This document shows positions 1-21,329 of a stretch of 21,329 nucleotides of DNA, one piece after another; positions within the stretch are counted from its first letter, which is position 1; every line of letters begins with the position of its first letter. The stretch covers positions 1 through 21,329 of IMG/VR virus record IMGVR_UViG_3300032242_003240; one strand, written 5' to 3'. The notes beneath the pieces are model-generated. The model was not told the DNA's origin. It did no database searches and saw nothing but the letters and a program-made list of their open reading frames with translations. This stretch comes from a virus. The position numbers and the translations under genes are program-made.

Positions 1-163
1 GTGAATTATTATCATTAGAAGCACCTTCTGATATGCGTTTACCAATATATAGGTGTTCAGTATCTTCTGCCCATCCAAATTCGCCAGCATCCAATTGCGG
101 AATGCCCGTTTGATTTTCTTGTCCTCGACGTACTTGTATCTTCGCTATTTCTAAAATTGCCAT
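1..163 (-). CDS. Mtd-like N-terminal phage structural protein, partial (C-terminus outside window)
   Basis: Only the first 54 codons are present; the gene runs off the left edge. The peptide starts MAILEIAKIQVRRGQE and continues with an LDAGEFGW...DTEHLYIGKR block. This spacing (IQxRRG, then GE-G-W, then DT-x-LYIG) is typical of the small N-terminal domain of the Bordetella phage major tropism determinant and many phage fibre or baseplate proteins, where it trimerises or attaches a receptor-binding protein. The ATG at 163 has an AAGGG ribosome site 8 bases upstream. The gene follows the exonuclease by 29 bases, and that gap holds a late-type promoter box and a perfect hairpin that contains the ribosome site. 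A late structural role is inferred; the receptor-binding part is not visible. Confidence 0.72.
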   Translation of the reverse strand, partial: MAILEIAKIQVRRGQENQTGIPQLDAGEFGWAEDTEHLYIGKRISEGASNDNNS

Positions 164-165
164 GG

Positions 166-189
166 AAATATCCCTTGTATGGGATATTT
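166..189 (-). promoter_or_regulatory. 9-bp hairpin masking the ribosome site of the Mtd-like gene
   Basis: Bases 166-174 and 181-189 are perfect inverted repeats (AAATATCCC / GGGATATTT) around a 6-base loop. Read on the minus strand, the right arm and loop contain the AAGGG ribosome site, and the stem ends 2 bases before the ATG. The left arm overlaps the late promoter box at 185-192. With T4 spacing the late transcript would start near 179 and lack the left arm, so only read-through RNA would fold. The fold is seen; the regulatory role is inferred. Confidence 0.7.
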
Positions 190-192
190 ATC
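185..192 (-). promoter_or_regulatory. Late-type promoter box GATAAATA
   Basis: The minus strand reads GATAAATA, 7 of 8 matches to the T4 late box TATAAATA. It lies 21 bases before the start of the Mtd-like gene and directly after the exonuclease stop codon. The predicted start of transcription is about base 179, inside the loop of the hairpin at 166-189. Confidence 0.6.
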
Positions 193-918
193 TTACTGTG
201 TGAGCAATTGCTTCAAGCCGTTCATGCCGGTGGTATAATATTCTTCTACTTTACTCAACCAAATATCTTCATACTTGTTAAAGTTATCTTTAGTTAAATC
301 AAATTGTTGATATTGAAAATCTCTACTACACATAAAGATAACGCCCCTACGAATGTCAGTACCATAGACTTCATTATGTGCTAGGATATAGGCAACTAAC
401 TGCACATAGTAATCTTCAACCCATTCAGCCTTCTTGGGTTTATTGGTTTGTTTATGATCGCAAACAGCTGGTTCGCCTTCGAATACACCCACTAAGTCTG
501 TAGTACCCGAGTATAATCCCGGAAAATATAGACTCTGTTCCATAGCCCATACTTCATTCATTTTGCTTAGGCCGTTTTCAATAATAACATCAGCCATTTT
601 ATTAGCCTGTACATGAACAGCATTATTGCCAGGCTGTCGTTGTTCGCCAATTAGGAAACGTTCTAAGTTGGCGTGCATAGCTGTCCCTACCCCGGCTGCC
701 TCTGTGGTAATCTGTTGTGCCTTATCATGCCCAATCCTGTTACGCCATTCGTTAAGATGTGTCATATCCTTGGTGCTGCTAAGGATAGTTGTTACACTTG
801 GAAGTTTCTCGCCGTCCGGAGTTTGGTAAACCCGTTTACGGGTTACTGGATCATTTATCTGCTTGCAGTTTTTATATTGGAAACGTTCAATGAACGGAGG
901 AGGAGTATATATAGTCAT
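193..918 (-). CDS. PD-(D/E)XK exonuclease (Cas4/MGME1-like)
   Basis: A 241-residue nuclease-fold protein. The PD-(D/E)XK signature is readable: GTTDLVG with Asp141, then AVCDHK with Asp154 and Lys156, then QLVAY (Gln173 to Tyr177). GTAMHANLE around His82 is the usual N-terminal helix of this branch, and Glu127 lies where the fold often has its first acidic residue. Similar proteins are common in T4-type cyanophages and marine phages, where they are thought to process DNA ends during replication or recombination. The ATG at 918 has no ribosome site; it lies 7 bases after a perfect consensus -10, so the mRNA is probably leaderless. That sigma70 promoter suggests early expression inside a late-gene region. 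The stop codon is 29 bases before the next gene. Confidence 0.85.
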   Translation of the reverse strand: MTIYTPPPFIERFQYKNCKQINDPVTRKRVYQTPDGEKLPSVTTILSSTKDMTHLNEWRNRIGHDKAQQITTEAAGVGTAMHANLERFLIGEQRQPGNNAVHVQANKMADVIIENGLSKMNEVWAMEQSLYFPGLYSGTTDLVGVFEGEPAVCDHKQTNKPKKAEWVEDYYVQLVAYILAHNEVYGTDIRRGVIFMCSRDFQYQQFDLTKDNFNKYEDIWLSKVEEYYTTGMNGLKQLLTQ

Positions 919-925
919 AAACTTA

Positions 926-954
926 ATTATAACTATATATTCTCATGATGTCAA
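926..954 (-). promoter_or_regulatory. Perfect consensus sigma70 promoter for the exonuclease
   Basis: On the minus strand TTGACA (954-949) and TATAAT (931-926) are separated by exactly 17 bases, a perfect match to the bacterial housekeeping consensus. Only 7 bases separate the -10 from the ATG at 918, which places the usual transcription start at or next to the A of the start codon. The -35 overlaps the stop codon of the upstream gene (953-951). Confidence 0.88.
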
Positions 955-4083: not shown

Positions 4084-4512
4084 CTATATTGCGCCTTTGA
4101 GAGCCTTGATGATTGTGTTTTTATATTGACTATCTTTGAGATCGAAGATAGCCTTGTCGATATTTATCGTTTCTAAAAGATTTTTGGTAAATGGAACTTG
4201 ATTGAGATCATTGACTAATTCACCAACCGGATCATTCCTATCGTCGGTATATACACCTTCGCGGTCCGGAGTAATTCTAAATGTCCATACAGTATGTTTA
4301 CCTTTATATGCACTGCCGAAGCCCATATCTTTAATATCAAAAGTATCGAATGAGGGACGAGTGTCATAGCTGACAACAGATCTAATCTCAATACACTGCA
4401 TCAATGTGATGAAGTTACGTTGTTGATCTAACTGTAGTTGTGTACCTTGATTAGGTCTTATCACCCGTGTATTAGTGATATCAACTAGTGTTTGAATTTC
4501 TATGATCTGCAT
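4084..4512 (-). CDS. T4-type marine-phage protein of unknown function
   Basis: A 142-residue protein beginning MQIIEIQTLVDITNTRVIRP. The first half has Q-rich and beta-type segments (GTQLQLDQQRNFITLMQCIE). The middle (HTVWTFRITPDREGVYTDDR) is rich in aromatic and charged residues, and the end is helical. I recall similar starts in hypothetical proteins of T4-type cyanophages, but know no function. The gene has its own late-type box CATAAATA 17 bases upstream, right after the terminator of the preceding gene, so it begins a new transcription unit. Confidence 0.78.
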   Translation of the reverse strand: MQIIEIQTLVDITNTRVIRPNQGTQLQLDQQRNFITLMQCIEIRSVVSYDTRPSFDTFDIKDMGFGSAYKGKHTVWTFRITPDREGVYTDDRNDPVGELVNDLNQVPFTKNLLETINIDKAIFDLKDSQYKNTIIKALKGAI

Positions 4513-4533
4513 AATATACCTATATAATATATT
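4513..4533 (-). promoter_or_regulatory. Weak AU-only hairpin over the start region of the 142-residue gene
   Basis: AATATA (4533-4528) and TATATT (4518-4513) on the minus strand form a 6-bp stem around a 9-base loop holding the AGG ribosome site, directly before the ATG. The upstream arm overlaps the late box, as at 166-189 and 8874-8896. The stem is short and all A-U, so stability is doubtful. Confidence 0.3.
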
Positions 4534-4537
4534 TATG
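4530..4537 (-). promoter_or_regulatory. Late-type promoter box CATAAATA
   Basis: The minus strand reads CATAAATA, 7 of 8 matches to TATAAATA, 17 bases before the ATG at 4512 and 4 bases after the terminator of the upstream gene. A start about 6 bases downstream would give a leader of about 12 bases with an AGG ribosome site. Confidence 0.6.
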
Positions 4538-4541
4538 CCAT

Positions 4542-4567
4542 AAAAAAAGGAAGTTAAAAACTTCCTT
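4542..4567 (-). terminator. Rho-independent terminator after the 137-residue gene
   Basis: On the minus strand, AAGGAAGTT and AACTTCCTT (4567-4559 and 4555-4547) form a perfect 9-bp stem with a 3-base loop, followed by an unbroken T run (4548-4542). It lies 22 bases after the stop codon of the gene at 4590-5003 and isolates that gene from the next one. Confidence 0.88.
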
Positions 4568-5059: not shown

Positions 5060-5067
5060 TATTTATC
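5060..5067 (-). promoter_or_regulatory. Late-type promoter box GATAAATA
   Basis: The minus strand reads GATAAATA, 56 bases before the ATG of the 137-residue gene. It is identical to the box before the Mtd-like gene. The predicted transcription start is near 5054. Confidence 0.62.
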
Positions 5068-5947: not shown

Positions 5948-6487
5948 ATGTCATATGTATCAGTTAGAAGGGTACTACCTCATGAGTACCCTAAGTATAG
6001 ATCACACCTTAAGGCATTAGATGCAGAATCTAGGACTCTTAGGTTCGGCTATCCTGTCACTGATTATGTAATAGATAATTTATGTGATAAGTTCGAAGCA
6101 GATCCCGGCAACCATGTGCTGTTTGCCATAGAGAATCGCAAGCTGGAATTTATTGCCGTAGGGCACATTGCATTAGATGGAGGTATGGAACTGGCATTTA
6201 GTGTGCTTAAGAAATATCAAGGACGTGGATTTGGTAATCTACTGATGAAACGATGTATACAATACTGCCGTACACACAACATACTTAACGGCAATATGGT
6301 CTGTTTAAGTTCTAACTCTGTTATTCGCCACTTATGCAAGAAGTATGGTATCAGCATAGAAAATGATCAAGGCGAAAGTCTTGCCAGTGTTCAATTACCA
6401 CCTGCTGACATTGGTACCTACATCAGCGAAACCATAGACAACAACATATCTGCCTTAGACTATATTTCCAAGCGAGTTATAGCCTAA
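5948..6487 (+). CDS. GNAT-family N-acetyltransferase
   Basis: A 179-residue acyl-CoA-dependent transferase. The acetyl-CoA loop reads YQGRGFGNLL at residues 90-99, a good match to the GNAT Q/R-x-x-G-x-G/A motif, preceded by the beta strand ELAFSVLKKY. The region FIAVGHIALDGG before it is typical of strands 2-3. The acceptor cannot be told; phage GNATs are known that modify small molecules or host proteins. It is the fourth gene of the plus-strand operon, starts one base after a 24-residue peptide, and has no strong ribosome site of its own, so coupling is likely. The C-terminal 40 residues (PADIGTYISETIDNNISALD) have no visible match. Confidence 0.85.
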   Translation: MSYVSVRRVLPHEYPKYRSHLKALDAESRTLRFGYPVTDYVIDNLCDKFEADPGNHVLFAIENRKLEFIAVGHIALDGGMELAFSVLKKYQGRGFGNLLMKRCIQYCRTHNILNGNMVCLSSNSVIRHLCKKYGISIENDQGESLASVQLPPADIGTYISETIDNNISALDYISKRVIA

Positions 6488-6498
6488 TAAATACTGGC

Positions 6499-7074
6499 AT
6501 GAAACTAGTGTATATTCACGGTGCGAATGCCACCAGCGAAAGCTTCAACTATATTAAGAGTAAAATAGGCAAGGGTATTGACCTAGACTATGACAGCCGC
6601 AATGGGTTTGAAAATAACCTAAAAGACATGTTGTCTAAACTAAGTGGACACACTGACCTAGTGTTTATTGCTCATAGCTTAGGAGGTATCTACAGCTTGC
6701 ATTTAGCTAATGCTATACCTAACCAGGTTGTCGGTGCTATTACTCTAAGCACGCCATATGGTGGGGCTGAAGTAGCAGACTATGCCCAGTATTTCTTACC
6801 ATTCAGCAGGTTAATGCGAGACATTGGACCCAGTAGTTGGGTAATGAAACAAGCAGACAAGATAAAGATACAGCATCCTTGGACTAATATTGTAACGGTC
6901 AAGGGGCAAAGTCCATTCATGCATGAGCCTAACGATGGTGTAGTAACCATTGCAAGTCAGCGACACCATGCTGACATGGAATTAGTAGATGTGGACTATA
7001 ATCACTATGAAGTAGTCTTAAGTGATCAAGTCATTAAACTAATCAAGGAAAGAGTAAACAATTTAAAAAAATAG
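6499..7074 (+). CDS. Alpha/beta hydrolase (lipase/esterase-like)
   Basis: A 191-residue compact hydrolase. The fold is clear: strand VYIHGAN with the oxyanion His7-Gly8, the nucleophile elbow AHSLGG with Ser60, then LSTPYGGAE. Asp146 in NDGVVT and His169 in YNHYEV complete a catalytic triad in the expected order. It resembles bacterial triacylglycerol-lipase and PGAP1-like small hydrolases; the substrate is unknown. It lacks a signal peptide, so it should act in the host cytoplasm or on the inner face of membranes. It lies 11 bases after the acetyltransferase. An AATAAATA box (6486-6493) lies 5 bases before the ATG, and it may be chance. Confidence 0.87.
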   Translation: MKLVYIHGANATSESFNYIKSKIGKGIDLDYDSRNGFENNLKDMLSKLSGHTDLVFIAHSLGGIYSLHLANAIPNQVVGAITLSTPYGGAEVADYAQYFLPFSRLMRDIGPSSWVMKQADKIKIQHPWTNIVTVKGQSPFMHEPNDGVVTIASQRHHADMELVDVDYNHYEVVLSDQVIKLIKERVNNLKK

Positions 7075-7467: not shown

Positions 7468-7492
7468 AATAGGACCTTCGGGTCCTATTTTT
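7468..7492 (+). terminator. Rho-independent terminator of the plus-strand block
   Basis: AATAGGACC and GGTCCTATT (7468-7476 and 7481-7489) form a perfect 9-bp stem closed by a stable TTCG loop. It runs into a five-T stretch (7488-7492). It sits 30 bases after the 88-residue gene and against the end of the converging metalloprotease gene. No T run follows on the minus strand, so it works mainly for the plus strand. Confidence 0.92.
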
Positions 7493-8055: not shown

Positions 8056-8874
8056 TTACTCTGCGGCGTTAGCTCCGCACTTGTTTCTTTTGGCTTGTGT
8101 AAGAGCTCCAAAGTTAACTGGCCATTCTTGGCCAGGTTGTAGTTCTTTGGCACCTGCTGGGAACGCATAGGTCACTCCAGCTTGTTTCTGAATGTCTGCT
8201 ACAGGAACACGGAACTTGGTTAAGTCGTTGCCTAAATTAACATATGGCTTTACGTGTGGGAATCCCCATCCTGCAATTTCTTTAGTAGCATTGTTGATTA
8301 CAATCTTGTAGTATCCGTGTGGAACAATGACACCGTTACCGATAGTAGGGTCACCGGCGCCATACAATGCTCCAACGTATATAGTATACGGTTGATTCAA
8401 TTGGACTGCCCATCCTCTTACTGATGTCTCTAACAACTTCCAAATTCCCCTGTTTAAACTTCCATGTTGGGGGTACATATTTGTCATTAAAAAACTTTCG
8501 TACTCCACTTGCTGTGTCCAAGATAGGTCACCATCCGGAGCAGCATGACCTTTGTCGTATCCTGTGCCAGCATAGTCATCTGGGCGAGCTCCGCCCTGTA
8601 CCGATTGGTCAGCAACGAAGGCATTTGTTCTTGGAAAGCATCCTAATGCGTTTTGTGGTAATAGTGTGTAGGCAACGTAGACTGGAATCTTAACCGGAGC
8701 ATCATATGCAACTAGATATGCTTCACGGCAGATAGGTGTAGCTGTTCGTTGTGTGGCTGCAAATCCATATGGGCTATGCACTTGGCAAGCCTGAACAGGG
8801 TTAGGGGCACGTTGGTCCCATGCATGAGCTAGGCCAAAGGCCATTAGCATCAATGCGGCGAATAATTTTTTCAT
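8056..8874 (-). CDS. Secreted DNA/RNA non-specific endonuclease (NUC1 / endonuclease G family)
   Basis: A 272-residue protein with an N-terminal signal peptide (MKK, hydrophobic LFAALMLMAFGLA, then HAW), cleaved probably after residue 18. The NUC1 catalytic motif reads YDKGHAAPDGD at 106-116 with His110; the usual DRGH appears as DKGH. TNMYPQHGSLNRGIW at 131-145 contains the metal-binding Asn141, followed by Glu149 as in the family. Family members cut DNA and RNA without sequence preference using one Mg ion. Export means it would act in the periplasm or outside the cell, not on the host chromosome: it may clear extracellular DNA or block incoming phage DNA. It has a late-type promoter, and a hairpin covers its start region. 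Confidence 0.9.
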   Translation of the reverse strand: MKKLFAALMLMAFGLAHAWDQRAPNPVQACQVHSPYGFAATQRTATPICREAYLVAYDAPVKIPVYVAYTLLPQNALGCFPRTNAFVADQSVQGGARPDDYAGTGYDKGHAAPDGDLSWTQQVEYESFLMTNMYPQHGSLNRGIWKLLETSVRGWAVQLNQPYTIYVGALYGAGDPTIGNGVIVPHGYYKIVINNATKEIAGWGFPHVKPYVNLGNDLTKFRVPVADIQKQAGVTYAFPAGAKELQPGQEWPVNFGALTQAKRNKCGANAAE

Positions 8875-8896
8875 AGCAGTCCTTAATTAACTGCTA
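8874..8896 (-). promoter_or_regulatory. Start-masking hairpin of the secreted nuclease gene
   Basis: TAGCAGT (8896-8890) and ACTGCTA (8880-8874) on the minus strand form a perfect 7-bp stem around a 9-base loop. The loop holds AAGG of the ribosome site, and the stem takes in the spacer and the A of the ATG. The late box ends 2 bases upstream. With T4 spacing, late mRNA would start near 8892 and keep only 3 of the 7 left-arm bases, freeing the start. The fold is seen; regulation is inferred. Confidence 0.65.
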
Positions 8897-8897
8897 T

Positions 8898-8905
8898 TAT
8901 TTATT
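8898..8905 (-). promoter_or_regulatory. Late-type promoter box AATAAATA before the nuclease
   Basis: The minus strand reads AATAAATA, 7 of 8 matches to the T4 late box, 23 bases before the nuclease ATG. It overlaps the stop codon of the FkbM gene. The predicted start of transcription is near 8892, inside the left arm of the hairpin. Confidence 0.55.
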
Positions 8906-12979: not shown

Positions 12980-13852
12980 TTAGAAAGTAATTGTTCCAGA
13001 CGTGGTAAAAGCGTAATACCTATATCCACCCGTCCTTGTATAGGTGGGATTTCCAGTAGTAATTGCAACTGCATAGGAATCAGGATATCGAACAATGACA
13101 ATTCCACTACCGCCTTGACGGGCACCCCCTACACTATCGCCGCCCATTGCTCCGCCTCCCGTTCCTAATGGACCGTCAAGGTAGCCTGATCCTAAACCGG
13201 GAACACCGTATGCTGCTATACCACTAGAGCCACCACCACCTCCGGCATAGTATGTACCTGAACCAGGTGGCCATTCTCTGCCAATACCTCCATCACCGCC
13301 GTGTCCTACAGTACCGGATTGCCCTGGGCCTCCAGCACCTCCACCGCCACCCGCATTATTACCACTACCAGATCCACCTGCATAACCTTGCCCTGCAATG
13401 CCGAGACTAGCAGCAGCACCGACACCAGTACCGCCACCACCTGAACCGCCTTGACCACCTCCGTTAGTACTTCCCGATCCACCGCCACCACCGGTAGTTG
13501 TTAAGAATGTACTAAAAGAACTATCTCCCCCGTTGCTTCCAGGGTTGTTACTAGATATTGATTGTTTTGGTCCACCACCACCGATAGTTACAACATACAA
13601 AACATATGGAACAACGGCAACGGTAGCTGTACTGAAACCACCACCACCGCCGCCGCCATGTTGTACATAACCCTGTGATGAGCCACCACCACCTGCAACT
13701 ACTAATATTTCTATATTACTATTCAATCTCTGCGGCCAAGTATTCGTGTAGTCTGCCTGTAGTTGTTCCCAAGGTTTCCAAACTCCTGTAGCACTATCTA
13801 CAGTGGGATTTACATATGTTGTTTGTAATATATTTGCAGGATTATTAGACAT
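12980..13852 (-). CDS. Glycine-rich fibre-tip adhesin-like protein
   Basis: A 290-residue protein with a short N-terminal region (NPANILQTTYVNPTVDSATG). A long domain with stretches of 4-7 glycines follows (from EILVVAGGGGSSQG to about residue 245), then a conserved closing strand GSGIVIVRYPDS and a C-terminal GYRYYAFTTSGTITF. Glycine-rich phage domains of this kind form polyglycine-II bundles in the distal adhesin gp38 of T4-like Salmonella phage S16, so a receptor-binding role is reasonable. It begins 2 bases after a 274-residue paralogue with the same layout, probably by translational re-initiation as no ribosome site is visible. It is the last fibre gene before the glycosyltransferase operon. 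Confidence 0.82.
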   Translation of the reverse strand: MSNNPANILQTTYVNPTVDSATGVWKPWEQLQADYTNTWPQRLNSNIEILVVAGGGGSSQGYVQHGGGGGGGFSTATVAVVPYVLYVVTIGGGGPKQSISSNNPGSNGGDSSFSTFLTTTGGGGGSGSTNGGGQGGSGGGGTGVGAAASLGIAGQGYAGGSGSGNNAGGGGGAGGPGQSGTVGHGGDGGIGREWPPGSGTYYAGGGGGSSGIAAYGVPGLGSGYLDGPLGTGGGAMGGDSVGGARQGGSGIVIVRYPDSYAVAITTGNPTYTRTGGYRYYAFTTSGTITF

Positions 13853-13854
13853 GA

Positions 13855-14679
13855 TTAAAACAATATAGAGCCAGTACGGTTGAAAAATGTATAGGTAACA
13901 TATCCGTTAGCATTTACAATTGTTGGATTACCTGTTACAACTTTAGGAAGATTATAAGTATTTAAGTGTCGAATTATAACTACTCCTGGATAACCTTGAC
14001 CCGTATTGAAGTAAACGGAATCTTGTGGTGCCCCGCCACCACCGCCGTAATCAGTTGCATTAGTGCCATTAGTGCTGTTGCTACCATTACCACCCCCATC
14101 AAGACCACGTCCTGCTGTACCGAACCCGGCTACACTATCACCGCCACCGCCACCGCCTGCAACTTTACGACCGAGAATTGTACTAAACAATCCCGGGCCA
14201 CCATTACTACTCACTGCACTACCAGGCCCACCGGCGCCGCCTCCACCAGGTCCAATCACTCCAGTGTCTAAGAAGGTTCCAACCTGGTTGTTTTGAGGTG
14301 ATCCGGATGTACCAACTGTTCCACCTCCGGCAATATAAGTTGCGGTTGTCACGTTACCTAAAGTCAACGATACACGAGATGCCGTTGCTGTCGTACCTGC
14401 TGTTATAGAAATAGTTTTACCCAATGGAATGGCAACGCCTAAATTTTCTATGAAACCTCCGCCTCCTCCGCCTGGCTGTTGGCCAGACCCTATGGCGGAG
14501 TTCCCACCACCACCGACTACTAAAAAATCAATTGGTATAACCGTTCCTAAATTCCAAATTCCAGCAGACTGGAGTAATCTTTGAGTTTTTATATTCCAAA
14601 TACCGTTGTAATTAGTAGTATTAACTGCTGGATCAGCAGGTCTAGATGCTGTAACTAATTTTTTATAAAACTTTGACAT
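13855..14679 (-). CDS. Glycine-rich fibre-tip adhesin-like protein, paralogue
   Basis: A 274-residue protein with the same plan as its downstream neighbour: a short N-terminus, an entry strand PIDFLVVGGGGNSAIG, a glycine-rich domain with several GGGGG runs to about residue 225, an exit strand GYPGVVIIRHLNTY, and a tail GYVTYTFFNRTGSILF. Both proteins share the GNPT...Y...F...G-S/T-I-x-F ending, which points to an old tandem duplication. Sequence between the shared strands differs, as expected if the loops contact different receptors. An AGGATAAT ribosome-type site lies about 8 bases before the ATG. Role as in the paralogue: predicted fibre adhesin. Confidence 0.82.
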   Translation of the reverse strand: MSKFYKKLVTASRPADPAVNTTNYNGIWNIKTQRLLQSAGIWNLGTVIPIDFLVVGGGGNSAIGSGQQPGGGGGGFIENLGVAIPLGKTISITAGTTATASRVSLTLGNVTTATYIAGGGTVGTSGSPQNNQVGTFLDTGVIGPGGGGAGGPGSAVSSNGGPGLFSTILGRKVAGGGGGGDSVAGFGTAGRGLDGGGNGSNSTNGTNATDYGGGGGAPQDSVYFNTGQGYPGVVIIRHLNTYNLPKVVTGNPTIVNANGYVTYTFFNRTGSILF

Positions 14680-14693
14680 CAGTCATTATCCTA

Positions 14694-15065
14694 TTAACTG
14701 ATAGTTTCAAATACAACTACATATTCTAATGCATTAGGAGTATTGTTTGATATTAGTATACTTTTATCTTCTAGTAGATATATAAAGTTTCCCTTATCAA
14801 CCAACTGCAAACTGGCGTTTGGAGGAACATAAATGTTATAGGCAATTCTATAACTAATACCTAGACCCGAAGCCGACCCGTTTAATGATACTGTTGTTTG
14901 ATCGATTGAAGAAGTAACGTTGGTAATAACAAGAGAGTTTATTTTAATTACAGAATTACTGTTACCGGGGTTGGAAATTAATATGTTTGCAGATGTGTTA
15001 GCTGGTATAAAACCTATAGTGCCAGCAACAATTGACGAGACGTTTACTATATTTGGTGATGCCAT
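14694..15065 (-). CDS. Small beta-rich virion or fibre protein
   Basis: A 123-residue protein starting MASPNIVNVSSIVAGTIGFI. I place the start at 15065, not at an in-frame upstream ATG, because a strong GGAGG site lies 5 bases before it and the longer version would overlap the collagen-like gene by 53 bases. The sequence alternates hydrophobic and polar residues (ANILISNPGNSNSVIKINSL, then DKSILISNNTPNALEYVVVF), which fits an Ig-like or jelly-roll beta sandwich. It lies within the fibre cluster between a collagen-like peptide and the glycine-rich adhesins. A structural role is inferred from context and fold pattern only. Confidence 0.75.
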   Translation of the reverse strand: MASPNIVNVSSIVAGTIGFIPANTSANILISNPGNSNSVIKINSLVITNVTSSIDQTTVSLNGSASGLGISYRIAYNIYVPPNASLQLVDKGNFIYLLEDKSILISNNTPNALEYVVVFETIS

Positions 15066-15066
15066 T

Positions 15067-15345
15067 TTATCCTCCGAATACCAATGCCATTGCAATGGCC
15101 TTACCTGTTGAGACTCCACTACCGGCGCTGCCGGTGTAGCCTGTATTACCTATATACCCTTGACTACCTGTGTATCCGCCTGAGGGGCCTCGACTTCCGG
15201 TATAACCTACAGAACCGGTGTAGCCACCAGCAGGACCTTGGCTACCTACATATCCTTGACTACCAGTGTAGCCGCCAGCAGGACCTTGGCTACCTGTATA
15301 GCCTACTAGGTTTGATCCTAAAATTGTTTTTACACTAAAAGTCAA
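15067..15345 (-). CDS. Collagen-like phage peptide, TTG start
   Basis: A 92-residue protein. After a 14-residue start, residues 15-75 are Gly-x-y repeats of the GYTGSQGPAG type, as in marine-phage fibres that fold as collagen-like triple helices. The C-terminus GKAIAMALVFGG is a hydrophobic tail that I recall at the ends of other collagen-like proteins of marine phages. The start is TTG at 15345, with GGAG 5 bases upstream, in the same CTAACTTGA context as the 99-residue gene. It ends against the ribosome site of the next gene, so the two are coupled. A probable linker or trimeric shaft within the tail-fibre complex. Confidence 0.8.
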   Translation of the reverse strand: MTFSVKTILGSNLVGYTGSQGPAGGYTGSQGYVGSQGPAGGYTGSVGYTGSRGPSGGYTGSQGYIGNTGYTGSAGSGVSTGKAIAMALVFGG

Positions 15346-15346
15346 G

Positions 15347-16207
15347 TTAGCTCCAGAATTGATATGTTGGTGTTGTTAGAGTGTTAGTTTTAACTGTGCC
15401 ATAGAGATCTAGATCTAAAATCCTAGCACGATCAGAACGAAATCCCTTTTCTATAAATGTATTTACTTCTCTTGTACCTATGGCCTGCATACTAGTTCCG
15501 CCAGTTTGACCATTATATGGTTGTATTCTACCCTGTGGAGTAGTTTGGTTAAGAGCCGGGCCAGATGTGATTGATACAGAACTAACTCCTTCGAATCCTG
15601 TTCGGCGAATAAATTTATCAAGTGCAGTATTTGGCTGTATTGGACTAGTTCCAGTTTGTCCATTATATGGTTGCAATCTACCAGCCCTAGTATCTTGCCC
15701 CACTGCTGTAGTGGTTGTATTTACGGCATTAACTGAACTCTGTCCATAGTTGTTGATAAATTTATCAAGTGCAGTATTTGGCTGTATTGGACTAGTTCCA
15801 GTTTGTCCATTATATGGTTGCAATCTACCAGCCCTAGTATCTTGCCCTAATGCAGTATTTGGCTGTATTGGACTAGTTCCAGTTTGTCCATTATATGGTT
15901 GCAATCTACCAGCCCTAGTATCTTGCCCTAATGCAGTACTTGTAGTTACTGCATCTACTGAACTTTGACCATAGTTGTTGATAAATTTACCTAGTGAAGT
16001 GCTTGATGTTACTGCATTTACTGCGCTTTGAGTAAGCCATGGTTGAAGCCTACCCTGTAGAGTGTTTTGGTTTAGCGCAGGAGCAATTAATATTGGTGAA
16101 GGCGAAGTACCGAACGGTGTATTCGATGCATTGGTTAGAAACTTATCAACCCCCGTGCCAAACAGCAAGGGGGTTGTTGTTGCTGTGCCAATTGATACAA
16201 TTGCCAT
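15347..16207 (-). CDS. Fibre protein with exact tandem repeats
   Basis: A 286-residue protein with several repeat types. Units reading GQDTRAGRLQPYNGQTGTSP plus IQPNTAL occur three times, separated by DKFINNYGQSSVNAVNT-type units. More diverged versions (LNQNTLQGRLQPW, LNQTTPQGRIQPYNGQ) flank them. The C-terminal 50 residues (EVNTFIEKGFRSDRARILDL onward) are non-repetitive and may be the attachment domain. No enzyme motif is visible. The repeats are identical at DNA level, so copy number may change by recombination and alter fibre length. The ATG is part of a TAATG junction with the upstream 705-residue gene. Confidence 0.8.
   Translation of the reverse strand: MAIVSIGTATTTPLLFGTGVDKFLTNASNTPFGTSPSPILIAPALNQNTLQGRLQPWLTQSAVNAVTSSTSLGKFINNYGQSSVDAVTTSTALGQDTRAGRLQPYNGQTGTSPIQPNTALGQDTRAGRLQPYNGQTGTSPIQPNTALDKFINNYGQSSVNAVNTTTTAVGQDTRAGRLQPYNGQTGTSPIQPNTALDKFIRRTGFEGVSSVSITSGPALNQTTPQGRIQPYNGQTGGTSMQAIGTREVNTFIEKGFRSDRARILDLDLYGTVKTNTLTTPTYQFWS
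15623..15928 (-). repeat. Three exact 78-base coding repeats
   Basis: Bases 15623-15700, 15770-15847 and 15851-15928 are identical over 78 bases by direct reading; each encodes 26 residues. Copies 1 and 2 share 12 further identical bases at the low-coordinate end (15611 and 15758). Copies 2 and 3 are only 3 bases apart. The lack of silent changes points to recent duplication or gene conversion. Confidence 0.92.
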
Positions 16208-18324
16208 TATGCCTTAATCAGCATTCTTCCAGTCTGATATCCGCCAATTGCAGTTGTGTTATACATGGTGTTGATATAGTTTGTTCTGTTATCAGTTGCA
16301 GATACCTGACTCCATGTAGTGAACAATCTTACACCGTTTGATGATGCACCTGCGGCAAATCCTAACGGATAACCAGTTGTGGCAGTTGTTGATGCGCCGA
16401 TACCAAATGTTAAACCAGGTGTAGTTTGACCAGGAAGGTTAAATTGTATACGAGCAGCATAACCAGTAGCAGCAGCCTGTCCTACCTTCTTTGGGAAGAT
16501 TAAGAATTGTCCGCGAACCGGAACAATGGCCATATCACCTCTGAAGTCATATGTGGTACTGGTTGTGGCCATGCTGGCCTGGCAAACAACACCAGTAGCA
16601 CCAGTTGTAAATGTACCGTTCTGCTGTAGTGTCAACAACTGGTTGTTTAATTCATATATAGAACCGTTTGTTGCAAAACCTACAACAAGATAAATTCTTC
16701 CAGAACTATAATCAATCCAGAAGCTAGTTGGACTATCAGCACCTGCTGTAGTAGAACCGGTTACTTTAGGATTAACGTTACCCTGAATCTGAACACCTGT
16801 ATCAGCAGTGAAGTTGGCAATTCTCATTGTCTGCGCGGAGTTAGTAGCAGCCTGTGTAGCAACATAGCAGTTACCTAGATAATCCGGAACTGGTGTTCCA
16901 AATCCTGTAGCAACAGTAGTACCAGTTGTGATGGTAAATGATGTAACAGTTGAAGCAGAGTTAAAGTTGTTCAATTGAACCATAAAGACCTGTGGAATCA
17001 ACTGAGCGGTTCTACCAGAAGCATAAATGTATTTCTGATCTAGTGCAAGGTAGCTGGTACCAGTTGTGATAGATGTTAATACAGTAGCCGTAAATGTTTC
17101 AGTATCAACTTTAACAATCCCGTTACTTGTAGATCCATAAATGCTACGCTGTCCGTCGAACACAATATCATAAACACCGTTTGCGTTGACATAACGCTGT
17201 GTAGTACCACCACCCTGGCCGGTGTTCATATCATATGTTCTAATGCCGTCATGTGATGGCAAATAAACAGTACTACCAACCGCAATTGGCTTACCAACAA
17301 TAGCAGCAGCAGTTTGACCGTAGGTAATAGTTGCTCTACCTGTTAGATATGCAGTATCGAGTTCGCAACCACCATTCATTGGCAATAGCAAATATTCTGT
17401 ACTTGTACCAGATGCACTGGGCCATCCGCCAGTAACATCGCCTGGAACTAGTGTCGAATCCAGGAACGTACCTAGAGATTTAGTAACACCTGTATTGTAT
17501 GCACGACCTACTGGCATACTTTTAAATTGAGAGTCAGCAGCAATCGGGCTAACGACAGTTTTAGTAGCATCCCAACCATATGTCATGTTATAGTAAGAAC
17601 CTAGGTGTAGTAAGTTAACATCAAGCGTTGGAGCAATTTGGTAAGTGCTGTTACCAATCGATGGATAGTTTGGAGGATACATACCTCTGTTGGTAGTAGG
17701 AGCATAAATTCTTGCAGCACTAGCGCCAGTTTGTCCGTCAGCAGTTCTTGGGAATGCAAACATTGTTTGGCTAGTAGAGGTACTTAATGAAGTCCCCCAT
17801 GGTGTTCCAATCATTAAAGAGCTAGTCCATGCAAAACACGGTACGTTAGCAGACGCAGTATCTTCACCTGCTACACGTTCAAATTCTAGAACACAGGTCC
17901 ACATTCCGCCTTCACCTTTGATAAAGTTCCAGAAAAGACAGTGTCGAGTAGTTCCGCCGATTACCAGTACACAATCTTTAAGGTCGTATCCCTGTTGGAA
18001 TGCCATCGCCCCGTTCCACGTTTCGTTGGTCGGCAAGTGAGTTGTAACCTGATCCCAACCTTCACATGCTGATGTATTAATAACCAACTGTTGTGTGTTG
18101 ATACGGAAAATCATATACTTGTAAGTAATAGTATCTGCGTTGATAGCACGATAGACTTTGGTTACAATTGGTGAAAAAGTTGTTACGGCTACGGTATCCC
18201 ATAATGTCCAACCAACTGCTGCCATACATGCATCAATTTGTTGAATAATGAAAGTAGACGAAGTTTCGTTGACAATAGTAATTTTCTTACTATTTGCTGT
18301 ATATGTTGATGTGGTTACTGACAT
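16207..18324 (-). CDS. Large virion structural protein with propeller-like repeats
   Basis: A 705-residue protein. I start it at the ATG at 18324 (MSVTTSTYTANSKKITIVNE), with AGGAT 5 bases upstream, not at a GTG 24 bases earlier that falls inside the leader hairpin. Residues 1-160 form a beta-rich N-terminal domain with conserved Trp and Cys residues, as in many tail or baseplate proteins. About residues 350-480 contain short repeated strands (GIRTYDMNTG, GVYDIVFDGQRSIYGSTSNG, YLALDQKYIYASG) like blades of a beta propeller. The last 150 residues are Thr/Gly-rich. No enzyme motif is seen. It has a perfect late promoter and is first in the fibre operon that continues to 12980. Confidence 0.8.
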   Translation of the reverse strand: MSVTTSTYTANSKKITIVNETSSTFIIQQIDACMAAVGWTLWDTVAVTTFSPIVTKVYRAINADTITYKYMIFRINTQQLVINTSACEGWDQVTTHLPTNETWNGAMAFQQGYDLKDCVLVIGGTTRHCLFWNFIKGEGGMWTCVLEFERVAGEDTASANVPCFAWTSSLMIGTPWGTSLSTSTSQTMFAFPRTADGQTGASAARIYAPTTNRGMYPPNYPSIGNSTYQIAPTLDVNLLHLGSYYNMTYGWDATKTVVSPIAADSQFKSMPVGRAYNTGVTKSLGTFLDSTLVPGDVTGGWPSASGTSTEYLLLPMNGGCELDTAYLTGRATITYGQTAAAIVGKPIAVGSTVYLPSHDGIRTYDMNTGQGGGTTQRYVNANGVYDIVFDGQRSIYGSTSNGIVKVDTETFTATVLTSITTGTSYLALDQKYIYASGRTAQLIPQVFMVQLNNFNSASTVTSFTITTGTTVATGFGTPVPDYLGNCYVATQAATNSAQTMRIANFTADTGVQIQGNVNPKVTGSTTAGADSPTSFWIDYSSGRIYLVVGFATNGSIYELNNQLLTLQQNGTFTTGATGVVCQASMATTSTTYDFRGDMAIVPVRGQFLIFPKKVGQAAATGYAARIQFNLPGQTTPGLTFGIGASTTATTGYPLGFAAGASSNGVRLFTTWSQVSATDNRTNYINTMYNTTAIGGYQTGRMLIKA

Positions 18325-18345
18325 AATTATCCTATAATTTAAAAA

Positions 18346-18363
18346 CACTGTGCATACACAGTG
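18346..18363 (-). promoter_or_regulatory. 5'-proximal stem-loop in the leader of the 705-residue gene
   Basis: CACTGTG (18363-18357) and CACAGTG (18352-18346) on the minus strand make a perfect 7-bp stem with the loop TATG, followed by five T. The shape resembles a terminator, but it lies 9 bases after a perfect late box, so it is near +5 of that transcript. It may stabilise late mRNA, and could also stop read-through from the upstream gene. Confidence 0.65.
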
Positions 18364-18372
18364 ACGATATTG

Positions 18373-18380
18373 TATTTATA
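18373..18380 (-). promoter_or_regulatory. Perfect T4-type late promoter box TATAAATA
   Basis: The minus strand reads TATAAATA exactly, 48 bases before the ATG at 18324, in a 79-base gap between fibre genes. The predicted start is near 18367. Confidence 0.78.
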
Positions 18381-18403
18381 ACTAAATTCTCATTAGCAAC
18401 AAA

Positions 18404-19219
18404 TTAAATAGCAGAATACTGCACCTGTAGATACAAATCTGTTCCCGGTACACTGCTTGATCCTACTTGTGTAACGTTGACTGTAAAATAGTCCCCTGCT
18501 GCTGCTATGATACCCGAAGTATACGGAGTTCCCTGCACTGCCCCAGAATTTATCGAAGTTGTTAGTACAGGGGTATCATTTTTTAACAATACTAGGTTAA
18601 CGTTTTGATCAGCGGCAACTCGTAGTCTAGGTATAACTGATGTAATTGTGCAGTTATAAGGAGCATACCAACGGGCTGTGCCTACGTAAACTGATAACGC
18701 TCCAGGCTGTTGCAGTGTAATTACTCCGGGACCAACGCTGCCCGTATAACCTACGGGTCCAATTGGGCCTGTTGTAGATGTTACTTGCCAGGTTGTGCCT
18801 ACGAAGATAAATTCAAACGTAGATCCTTTTAGATCTAGAATAATATTATCTGCATATCCTTCAATAGTAGATCCGTTTCTTAATACAGTTACAGGATATA
18901 AACTTAAATCGTAACCGTCTGTGATCTGTATGTAGTAACCTGATGTAGGGTTACTGGGCAATGTAATAGTAAAAGAACCATAAATTGTGTTGGCAATGAT
19001 CCTATCACCGTTACTGGCGGTGTAATCAGTGATTTTTGGTGTCCAAGGATTTGTTGCACTTCCTGGAATACCCTGACTACCTACATAGCCAAGGCTACCT
19101 GTATAACCAACAGTAGTAGAAACTGCCTTCCAAAAATCTCCGGTCCACTGCCATGTTCTGTCACCAAAGGTAAACGTTTGTCCTACTGATGTCGGTGTTG
19201 GAAAATTAATAGCTATCAT
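18404..19219 (-). CDS. Tail-fibre protein with short collagen-like segments
   Basis: A 271-residue protein. Residues 1-36 (GQTFTFGDRTWQWTGDFWKA) are the short W-x-W module often found at the start of marine-phage fibre proteins. Residues 38-53 are collagen-like (GYTGSLGYVGSQGIPG). A beta-rich domain with GYYIQITDGYDLS and GSTFEFIFVGTTWQVTST follows. A second collagen-like stretch (GPIGPVGYTGSVGPG) leads to a C-terminal beta sandwich ending YLQVQYSAI. This alternation of Gly-x-y linkers and beta domains is typical of fibres. It starts 18 bases after the upstream LamG gene. A weak TTAAATA sequence lies before the ATG, too poor to call a promoter. Confidence 0.82.
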   Translation of the reverse strand: MIAINFPTPTSVGQTFTFGDRTWQWTGDFWKAVSTTVGYTGSLGYVGSQGIPGSATNPWTPKITDYTASNGDRIIANTIYGSFTITLPSNPTSGYYIQITDGYDLSLYPVTVLRNGSTIEGYADNIILDLKGSTFEFIFVGTTWQVTSTTGPIGPVGYTGSVGPGVITLQQPGALSVYVGTARWYAPYNCTITSVIPRLRVAADQNVNLVLLKNDTPVLTTSINSGAVQGTPYTSGIIAAAGDYFTVNVTQVGSSSVPGTDLYLQVQYSAI

Positions 19220-19237
19220 ATTCTAGTATTTAACAAA

Positions 19238-21329
19238 TTAGCAAGATGGTGGAAGCAATGTCACGGGTTGGAAAGCATTAAATCCAAAAGAACTAGTTGT
19301 TCCAGTTGTCAGGTAACGAGCAAGTCCTTTGGTAACACGCACGTTGTCGATAAATCCAGTAAAATAAGCAAGTGACCCAGTTACAAGAGATGCACCTACT
19401 ATAATATTATGTTGGTTTAATGAATACCCATTTGAAAACGCGGCTATTTCAACATTACCGTTTAAGAATGTTGTTACTGAATTGGCAGATCTAACCATTG
19501 CAACATGATACCAGGTACCAGTGTTAATTACAGTGGTTCCTGTTGTGATAAATGCTGTAGAAGATGTAGCAGTATCTTTAAGAGTCACGGTTAACAAATT
19601 GGTAGTTTCTACACTTATGATAAAATAGTTATTATTATCCGATCCATCTGCACTGGATACAATCGGGTGAATAACTCCTGTTACATTACGGTTAAACCAA
19701 GCTTCTACAGTAAACGAATCATATCCAAATGCATTTATAGGTGTTGACAACATAGACACGCTGCTGGCTCCCGGGAAATACATTAATGCTCCACTACCAT
19801 TGGGGTTATATAAAGAAGAAGTTGTAGTATACGACAATCTGGGTACAGTGGCACCAATTGATGTGTTTATATTATTTCTACCACTTTGATCAACAATAGG
19901 AGCATCAGACATGGGCAATGAAAGAACAGTATTTGCTGTAGGATTCAATGGAATAGTAGATGGCGTAAAGTTTGTTGTGTAAATTGCCTGCCCTTTAATT
20001 ATACGCAAGTCAGAAATATAACCAATAAATGGAGTAGCAAGAGTCCCTCCCCAAGTAGTAACATAGTTAGAACCTATTGCCAACCCTCGAGGAGTAGAAT
20101 CATATAATGTTGCTGTAGAAGTTACCTGTGTAAATCCTTGTACTCCATTAACAAAACCTCTAAAAGTACTACCTGATCTTGTTACTGCAACGTGATTCCA
20201 AGTATATGCTGAAATAGCTCCTAAATTTCCGTTTGTATTTTCGCCACCAATTTCATATCCTGCGTTTGATGTACTTGCAGCAAATCTAACATATTTTGTT
20301 GTGCTGTCTATGTAGATTTCATAACTGGCGTTTGCAATACCTGTGCCGCCGCCCTTGTTAATCAACATACCTGTGCCGCTAATCCAATACATCCAAAACT
20401 CAATAGTGAAATCACCAGGCAAATGATGGTTGTATGTATAAGGCATCAACAAGTTACTTGAGGTAAAATAGGTTGAACCACCTATTATTGACCTATTATA
20501 TGGTCCGGGACTAGTAAACGGTGAAAATCTCTGTATACTAGGAGTACCAGTTATAGTAAAAGTAGAATTATTGTTGCTATTGTCAACAAATCTATTATTT
20601 TGTAAAGTTAACAGTTGCGTTCCGGGGATTGCTGCTAATTGAGCAACAGACGGTGTAAAATTTGAAGTATATACTGCTGTACCTATTACCATACGCACAT
20701 TAGATATAAAACCAATAAACTTTTCACTACCATTATTATTAGCTCCGATAGTTACTGTATATAAAGATAAGTTGTCGTTGATGTGTAGGAATCCAGTAAC
20801 GTTGTTAGTATAGGTAAAAACAGAACTAACAGTGAATACGTTTAAAGTAGTTGTTCCAGTAGTACTTGTTGTTCCATTACCCTGAGTAGTTCCCAGGCCA
20901 GCAAGATAACTTAGAACTACAACACCCGAACCACCGTTACCACCAGTGCCGGGAGTTCCTAGATCGTTAGTGGCAGCACCGCCTCCTCCTCCTCCTCCAG
21001 AATTTATTGATCCACTAATACCGTTAGCAAGACTACTACCGTTTTGTGTTTGACCACTGGCGCCACCACCGCCCATGCCACCAATAGATGCACCATTTAC
21101 TGCATACGCTGATGGAAACGCTGAGCTATTTAAGCCACTTATACTGCCGGCGCCACCGCCACCACCGGAAAACCATAAAGAATTAGTAGAGGTATTATAT
21201 TGACCAATACTTGTTGTAGTAGTAATAGTAATTAAAGTAGTATAAGTTCCAACTCCACCTCCACCGTAAGTGTTTGGACTGTAGTAGGTTTGATTTGTAG
21301 GACTGCTACCAGCACCGCCGCCACCACCA
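19238..21329 (-). CDS. Glycine-rich and LamG-repeat adhesin, partial (N-terminus outside window)
   Basis: At least 696 residues. The reading frame stays open to the right edge, so the ATG near 21076 is internal. From 21329 to about 20900 it has glycine-rich stretches, closing with a GSGVVVLSYLAG strand like the two glycine-rich adhesins. Three concanavalin-like LamG segments follow. The first (about 20830-20500) is short and has only a C-terminal half (FIGFISNVRMVIGTAVYTSN). The second (about 20480-19830) is complete (FTIEFWMYW, WNHVAVTRSG, FIGYISDLRIIKGQAIYT). The third (about 19820-19238) is also complete (FTVEAWFNR, WYHVAMVRSA, FIDNVRVTKGLARYL). LamG folds bind sugars or proteins, so this is a likely receptor-binding fibre. 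Confidence 0.87.
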   Translation of the reverse strand, partial: GGGGGAGSSPTNQTYYSPNTYGGGGVGTYTTLITITTTTSIGQYNTSTNSLWFSGGGGGAGSISGLNSSAFPSAYAVNGASIGGMGGGGASGQTQNGSSLANGISGSINSGGGGGGGAATNDLGTPGTGGNGGSGVVVLSYLAGLGTTQGNGTTSTTGTTTLNVFTVSSVFTYTNNVTGFLHINDNLSLYTVTIGANNNGSEKFIGFISNVRMVIGTAVYTSNFTPSVAQLAAIPGTQLLTLQNNRFVDNSNNNSTFTITGTPSIQRFSPFTSPGPYNRSIIGGSTYFTSSNLLMPYTYNHHLPGDFTIEFWMYWISGTGMLINKGGGTGIANASYEIYIDSTTKYVRFAASTSNAGYEIGGENTNGNLGAISAYTWNHVAVTRSGSTFRGFVNGVQGFTQVTSTATLYDSTPRGLAIGSNYVTTWGGTLATPFIGYISDLRIIKGQAIYTTNFTPSTIPLNPTANTVLSLPMSDAPIVDQSGRNNINTSIGATVPRLSYTTTSSLYNPNGSGALMYFPGASSVSMLSTPINAFGYDSFTVEAWFNRNVTGVIHPIVSSADGSDNNNYFIISVETTNLLTVTLKDTATSSTAFITTGTTVINTGTWYHVAMVRSANSVTTFLNGNVEIAAFSNGYSLNQHNIIVGASLVTGSLAYFTGFIDNVRVTKGLARYLTTGTTSSFGFNAFQPVTLLPPSC

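Follow-up and report, generated by a model that had tools for sequence, protein, structure and literature searches.

The DNA analysed here, hereafter the window, is a stretch of 21,329 nucleotides from the IMG/VR virus record IMGVR_UViG_3300032242_003240. At one end of it, on the minus strand, an exonuclease gene is followed closely by the start of a second gene, and the junction between them carries a T4-type late box, a hairpin and a ribosome site. Searches with Rfam and for tRNAs found nothing, and no near-identical phage was present in the phage collection searched. The features of this locus are:

1–163, minus strand: first part of a beta-helix tailspike-like gene, truncated at the window end, with a weak Mtd_N-like N-terminus
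166–174, minus strand: hairpin 3′ arm GGGATATTT, containing the GGG of AAGGG (176–172), from sequence and fold
178–180, minus strand: predicted late transcription start, A180 favoured, from a conserved A and T4 geometry (PMC2988020)
181–189, minus strand: hairpin 5′ arm AAATATCCC, expected to precede the point at which late transcripts begin
185–192, minus strand: T4-type late box GATAAATA (core 185–191), from sequence, the core occurring in 57/57 junctions
193–918, minus strand: PD-(D/E)XK exonuclease, the upstream gene (phrog_298, E 1.5e-53; PDDEXK_1)
926–954, minus strand: sigma-70 promoter of the exonuclease, TTGACA-N17-TATAAT, presumed early (12/12 consensus match)

The junction runs on the minus strand from the exonuclease stop codon TAA (195–193) through GATAAATATCCCATACAAGGGATATTTCC to the ATG (163–161) of the next gene, in the order TAA, late box GATAAATA (192–185), TCCCATACAAGGGATATTTCC and ATG. 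The first-pass annotation had described a perfect 9-bp hairpin at 166–189 that holds the AAGGG ribosome site and is overlapped by the late box. The stem is indeed perfect, with 9/9 pairs between AAATATCCC (189–181) and GGGATATTT (174–166) around the 6 nt loop ATACAA, and the box does overlap the 5′ arm, but only the GGG of the ribosome site (176–172) is paired, in the 3′ arm, both A residues lying in the loop. The local fold of the junction gave z = −3.3, with 0/200 shuffles equally stable. Perfect stems (at least 9 bp, loop of 3–10) are not rare in themselves (3 in the window, 1.0 expected), so the case rests upon the position of this hairpin and upon its conservation. The other two perfect 9-bp hairpins, at 4547–4567 and 7468–7489, are intergenic and resemble ordinary terminators. 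The word ATAAATA is not over-represented in the window either (9 found, 7.8 expected); 8/9 copies lie within ~60 nt upstream of start codons. The first base of the late box is G or C, whereas the T4 consensus has T.

An early-type promoter had been proposed for the exonuclease, and its match to the sigma-70 consensus proved to be perfect; it is kept in relatives with 17-bp spacing. Both here and in relatives, the −10 box ends ~7 nt ahead of the exonuclease ATG (918–954), so the mRNA would be leaderless or nearly so. A terminator scan found none at the exonuclease–tailspike junction, and the tailspike is followed by a small gene and then by nrdA, which lies downstream in 52/56 loci. The perfect promoter, the lack of a junction terminator and the downstream nrdA together make it seem that the tailspike lies inside an operon that is presumably transcribed early. 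The late sigma factor gp55 was found in the three largest relatives, G002, G003 and G004 (280–355 kb; phrog_12791, E ~1e-82 to 1e-85, and also phrog_234); the window, a genome fragment, showed none.

The downstream gene had been called Mtd-like. Its N-terminus does bear a weak resemblance to Mtd_N, although the match (18.2 bits) is below the Pfam cut-off of 26.3, and the full-length relatives are pectate-lyase-like beta-helix proteins of about 615–670 aa, two of which (L033:3756–5768 and L237:712–2643) match PF12708. An identity as Mtd was rejected on these grounds. The tailspike had no match among 50,697 phage records and no relative in a named phage; its product is tailspike-like and likely to be a host-recognition protein. 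Elsewhere in the window, 12980–21328 on the minus strand holds a run of glycine-rich, fibre-type proteins with GYTGSQG repeats (collagen-like).

Relatives were drawn from IMG/VR using the exonuclease, and reading the sequence past the exonuclease stop gave 57 distinct junctions. A late box, ATAAATA or CTAAATA, was present in all 57, 19–30 nt ahead of the start codon. In 55 of the 57, the segment from box to start pairs with that of the ribosome site to form a stem, so the pairing, whose absence from homologous junctions would have counted against the first-pass annotation, is conserved; L155 and L173 had no strong stem, without clear reason. The T4 late box occupies about −13 to −6, roughly one helical turn ahead of the start (PMC2988020), and this geometry applied to the window box predicts +1 at 178–180. 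An A at box+5, which is A180 in the window, occurs in 53/57 junctions and sits directly past the hairpin 5′ arm, which ends at 181. The predicted late +1 is thus more likely to be A180; the earlier estimate of 179 follows T4 geometry.

The ribosome site lies within a predicted helix of the long transcript, and both transcript forms were folded, as had been proposed. By computation, opening the ribosome site and AUG of the window costs 11.6 kcal/mol in the long form and 3.9 kcal/mol in the late form. Over the junctions, cutting the RNA at the predicted late start lowered the mean from 10.7 to 3.5 kcal/mol, and the late form was cheaper to open by at least 2 kcal/mol in 56/57.

The arms of the hairpin belong to unrelated types, namely TATCCC/GGGATA, TATCCT/AGGATA, TACCC/GGGTA, CTCTAT/ATAGAG and CTAGAAAC/GTTTCTAG. 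Each junction's own arms paired at −7.95 kcal/mol, compared to −5.70 kcal/mol when arms were swapped between junctions, and 0/10,000 permutations did as well. When neighbouring segments were paired as controls, the seven pairings gave z from −0.4 to 1.5, near zero, which argues that the arm-match effect does not come from relatedness alone. Mixed alignments (A1 and A2) were unusable for column-wise covariation, as the leader types are shifted in register, and counts were made on subsets A3 and A4 in their place. The close TATCC group has a nearly invariant stem, 91 % paired, in which covariation did not exceed that of shuffles (subset A3); the arm-match signal comes from differences between leader types and not from within this group. 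Leader types change at least 19 times on the exonuclease tree, on which branch support is modest, and this suggests that the leader and the tailspike are exchanged together as one module.

Four alleles are rearranged. In L031 and L057, a SegE-like GIY-YIG endonuclease lies between exonuclease and tailspike, and in the L061 group an antisense reading frame separates the two; all three keep the late box and have lost the strong stem, with opening costs of 1.9–6.3. L168 is the exception among the four, as a co-directional gene is inserted and the stem is retained. The alleles are few, and the losses fit a decay of the stem once read-through is broken, although in L031 and L057 replacement of the leader by the insertion itself may be the whole explanation. 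The endonuclease genes (L031:2660–3430 and L057:1640–2400) sit at the tailspike start, with a short remnant of its first codons upstream.

Taken together, this evidence makes it very probable that the tailspike leader is a T4-type switch allowing translation only late. Read-through RNA from the exonuclease sigma-70 promoter would contain both arms and fold, so that the ribosome-site GGG and the spacer ahead of the AUG would both be hidden. RNA begun at the late box would start at about A180, lack the 5′ arm and leave the tailspike start open. Such a switch would let a virion tailspike sit between exonuclease and nrdA without being produced early. We infer the timing of transcription, the start site and the repression in cells from these data.

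The alternative that survives best, which we nevertheless regard as improbable, is translational coupling, whereby ribosomes finishing the exonuclease would melt the hairpin and tie tailspike translation to that of the exonuclease rather than to late time. The exonuclease stop is 3 nt before the stem, so that terminating ribosomes could open it transiently, and in several relatives the stop overlaps the late box. However, the distance between stop and box ranges from −4 to +17 nt and beyond with the stem still kept, and coupling would need neither a late box nor an arm ending just ahead of the presumed start. In T4, moreover, nudE ends 37 nt ahead of e and pin ends 41 nt ahead of 49, yet repression of e in long transcripts remains strong (PMC3014915). 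A DNA palindrome or RNA hairpin serving as the target of a repressor protein has very little to recommend it: a near-perfect palindrome does overlap the promoter, but stem and loop sequences are wholly different among the types (TATCCC, CTCTAT, CTAGAAAC) with only the pairing kept. Hairpin stability was also higher on the sense than on the antisense strand in 42 junctions and lower in 10, a bias that fits selection on RNA (G–U pairs).

It is hardly credible that the hairpin is an intrinsic terminator closing the exonuclease transcript, since, stable and directly after the stop codon as it is, it lacks a U tract (a U-rich tail follows the stem in only 2/57 junctions), was not called by the terminator scan and would cut off nrdA. 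Chance pairing of an AT-rich late box with an AT-rich ribosome site can be dismissed with similar assurance: an equal arm score is found in 15 % of genes that lack a late box, but this does not account for stems in 55/57 junctions, the arm-swap result or the relatedness controls. Among the genes of four large relatives, 15/50 with a late box and a short leader have such a helix, compared to 144/946 (15 %) control genes (p = 0.009). This enrichment is only about twofold; most other late-box genes have open leaders, which indicates that the hairpin is not a by-product of the late box.

A second candidate for the same late-only switch was found within the window:

8056–8874, minus strand: DNA/RNA non-specific endonuclease with a signal-like N-terminus (Endonuclease_NS, E 1.9e-38)
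8872–8904, minus strand: candidate second switch, with box 8904–8898 and arms ATAGCAGT (8897–8890) and ACTGCTAT (8880–8873), from sequence

In the leader of this secreted nuclease, the late box is followed by ATAGCAGT ... ACTGCTATG; its ribosome site falls within the loop, and its AUG closes the 3′ arm. The arms change together among relatives, being ATAGTAGT/ACTACTAT in G003 and AATAGCACC/GGTGCTATT in L265, and other relatives pair GTAGTACTT with AGTACTAT-type arms. Across 35 nuclease leaders, own arms paired at −5.95 compared to −3.77 when swapped (0/10,000 permutations), and in a register-clean subset the covariation score exceeded all 500 shuffles. The nuclease leader at L275:1450–1503 has an 11-bp perfect stem, CTAGGGTCTCC/GGAGACCCTAG, whose loop carries the late box, so that the entire 5′ arm lies ahead of the start. 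A further candidate, ATAAATATCTGATAGGAGATATCAGTG at L206:1616–1640, precedes a 930-aa tail protein (phrog_5939) in a 355-kb relative.

Other leaders in the window were considered and rejected. The 142-aa gene at 4084–4512 (late box 4536) resembled a third switch in the genome scan and was discarded, as the stems of its relatives are short, AU-rich and weak; its leader (4530–4536) is very short and conserved, with 17 nt from box to ATG and weak AU-rich pairing only. Hairpins in the leaders at 5066, 7112 and 18379 were rejected by inspection, because they begin past the presumed late start and would remain in the late RNA. At 6487–6499, ATAAATA lies just 5 nt ahead of the ATG of a predicted hydrolase-like gene, whose late mRNA would be leaderless if this box were used.

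A broader reading, which we hold only tentatively and consider possible rather than probable, is that such leaders are a general device of T4-like jumbo phages for keeping late virion or toxic genes (tailspike, secreted nuclease, tail protein) within early operons, with late gene, box and hairpin forming an exchangeable module and the hairpin decaying off the read-through path. The tailspike leader would extend a classic T4 control device to a large group of uncultured jumbo phages and to a likely host-recognition protein, with evolutionary support across dozens of phages in the form of co-varying arms and of losses in rearranged alleles. It would also offer a simple signature by which late genes concealed within early operons could be recognised from sequence.

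To our knowledge, no earlier report in the open-access literature describes such an arrangement outside the T4 cases. The Klebsiella phage RaK2 and the Xanthomonas phage XaC1 have a homologous exonuclease (~47 % identity) followed by two small genes and then nrdA, and in XaC1 the exonuclease is also preceded by a sigma-70-like promoter; the exonuclease–nrdA junction of these phages holds no tailspike, late box or hairpin. In T4, the leaders of e, soc, 49 and I-TevI permit late-only translation (PMC3014915), so the first-pass annotation had named e, soc and I-TevI correctly as precedents, and gene 49 visibly has the same anatomy. When the T4 e and 49 leaders were folded in our analysis, their layout was that of the tailspike junction: the preceding gene ends close by, and the box supplies or adjoins the 5′ arm of a helix in which the ribosome site is buried. 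The late RNA of e and 49 lacks the 5′ arm (PMC3014915), and the same is predicted for the tailspike leader, which on sequence features falls within the e/soc/49/I-TevI class. The box is GATAAATA in the tailspike leader and TATAAATA in T4. Unlike in T4, the gene concerned encodes a beta-helix tailspike and lies between exonuclease and nrdA, the leader past the presumed start is short, and the phage group is uncultured. A switch of this type on a virion gene would not be a first, as soc of T4, which has such a leader, also encodes a structural protein, namely a capsid decoration protein unrelated to the tailspike.
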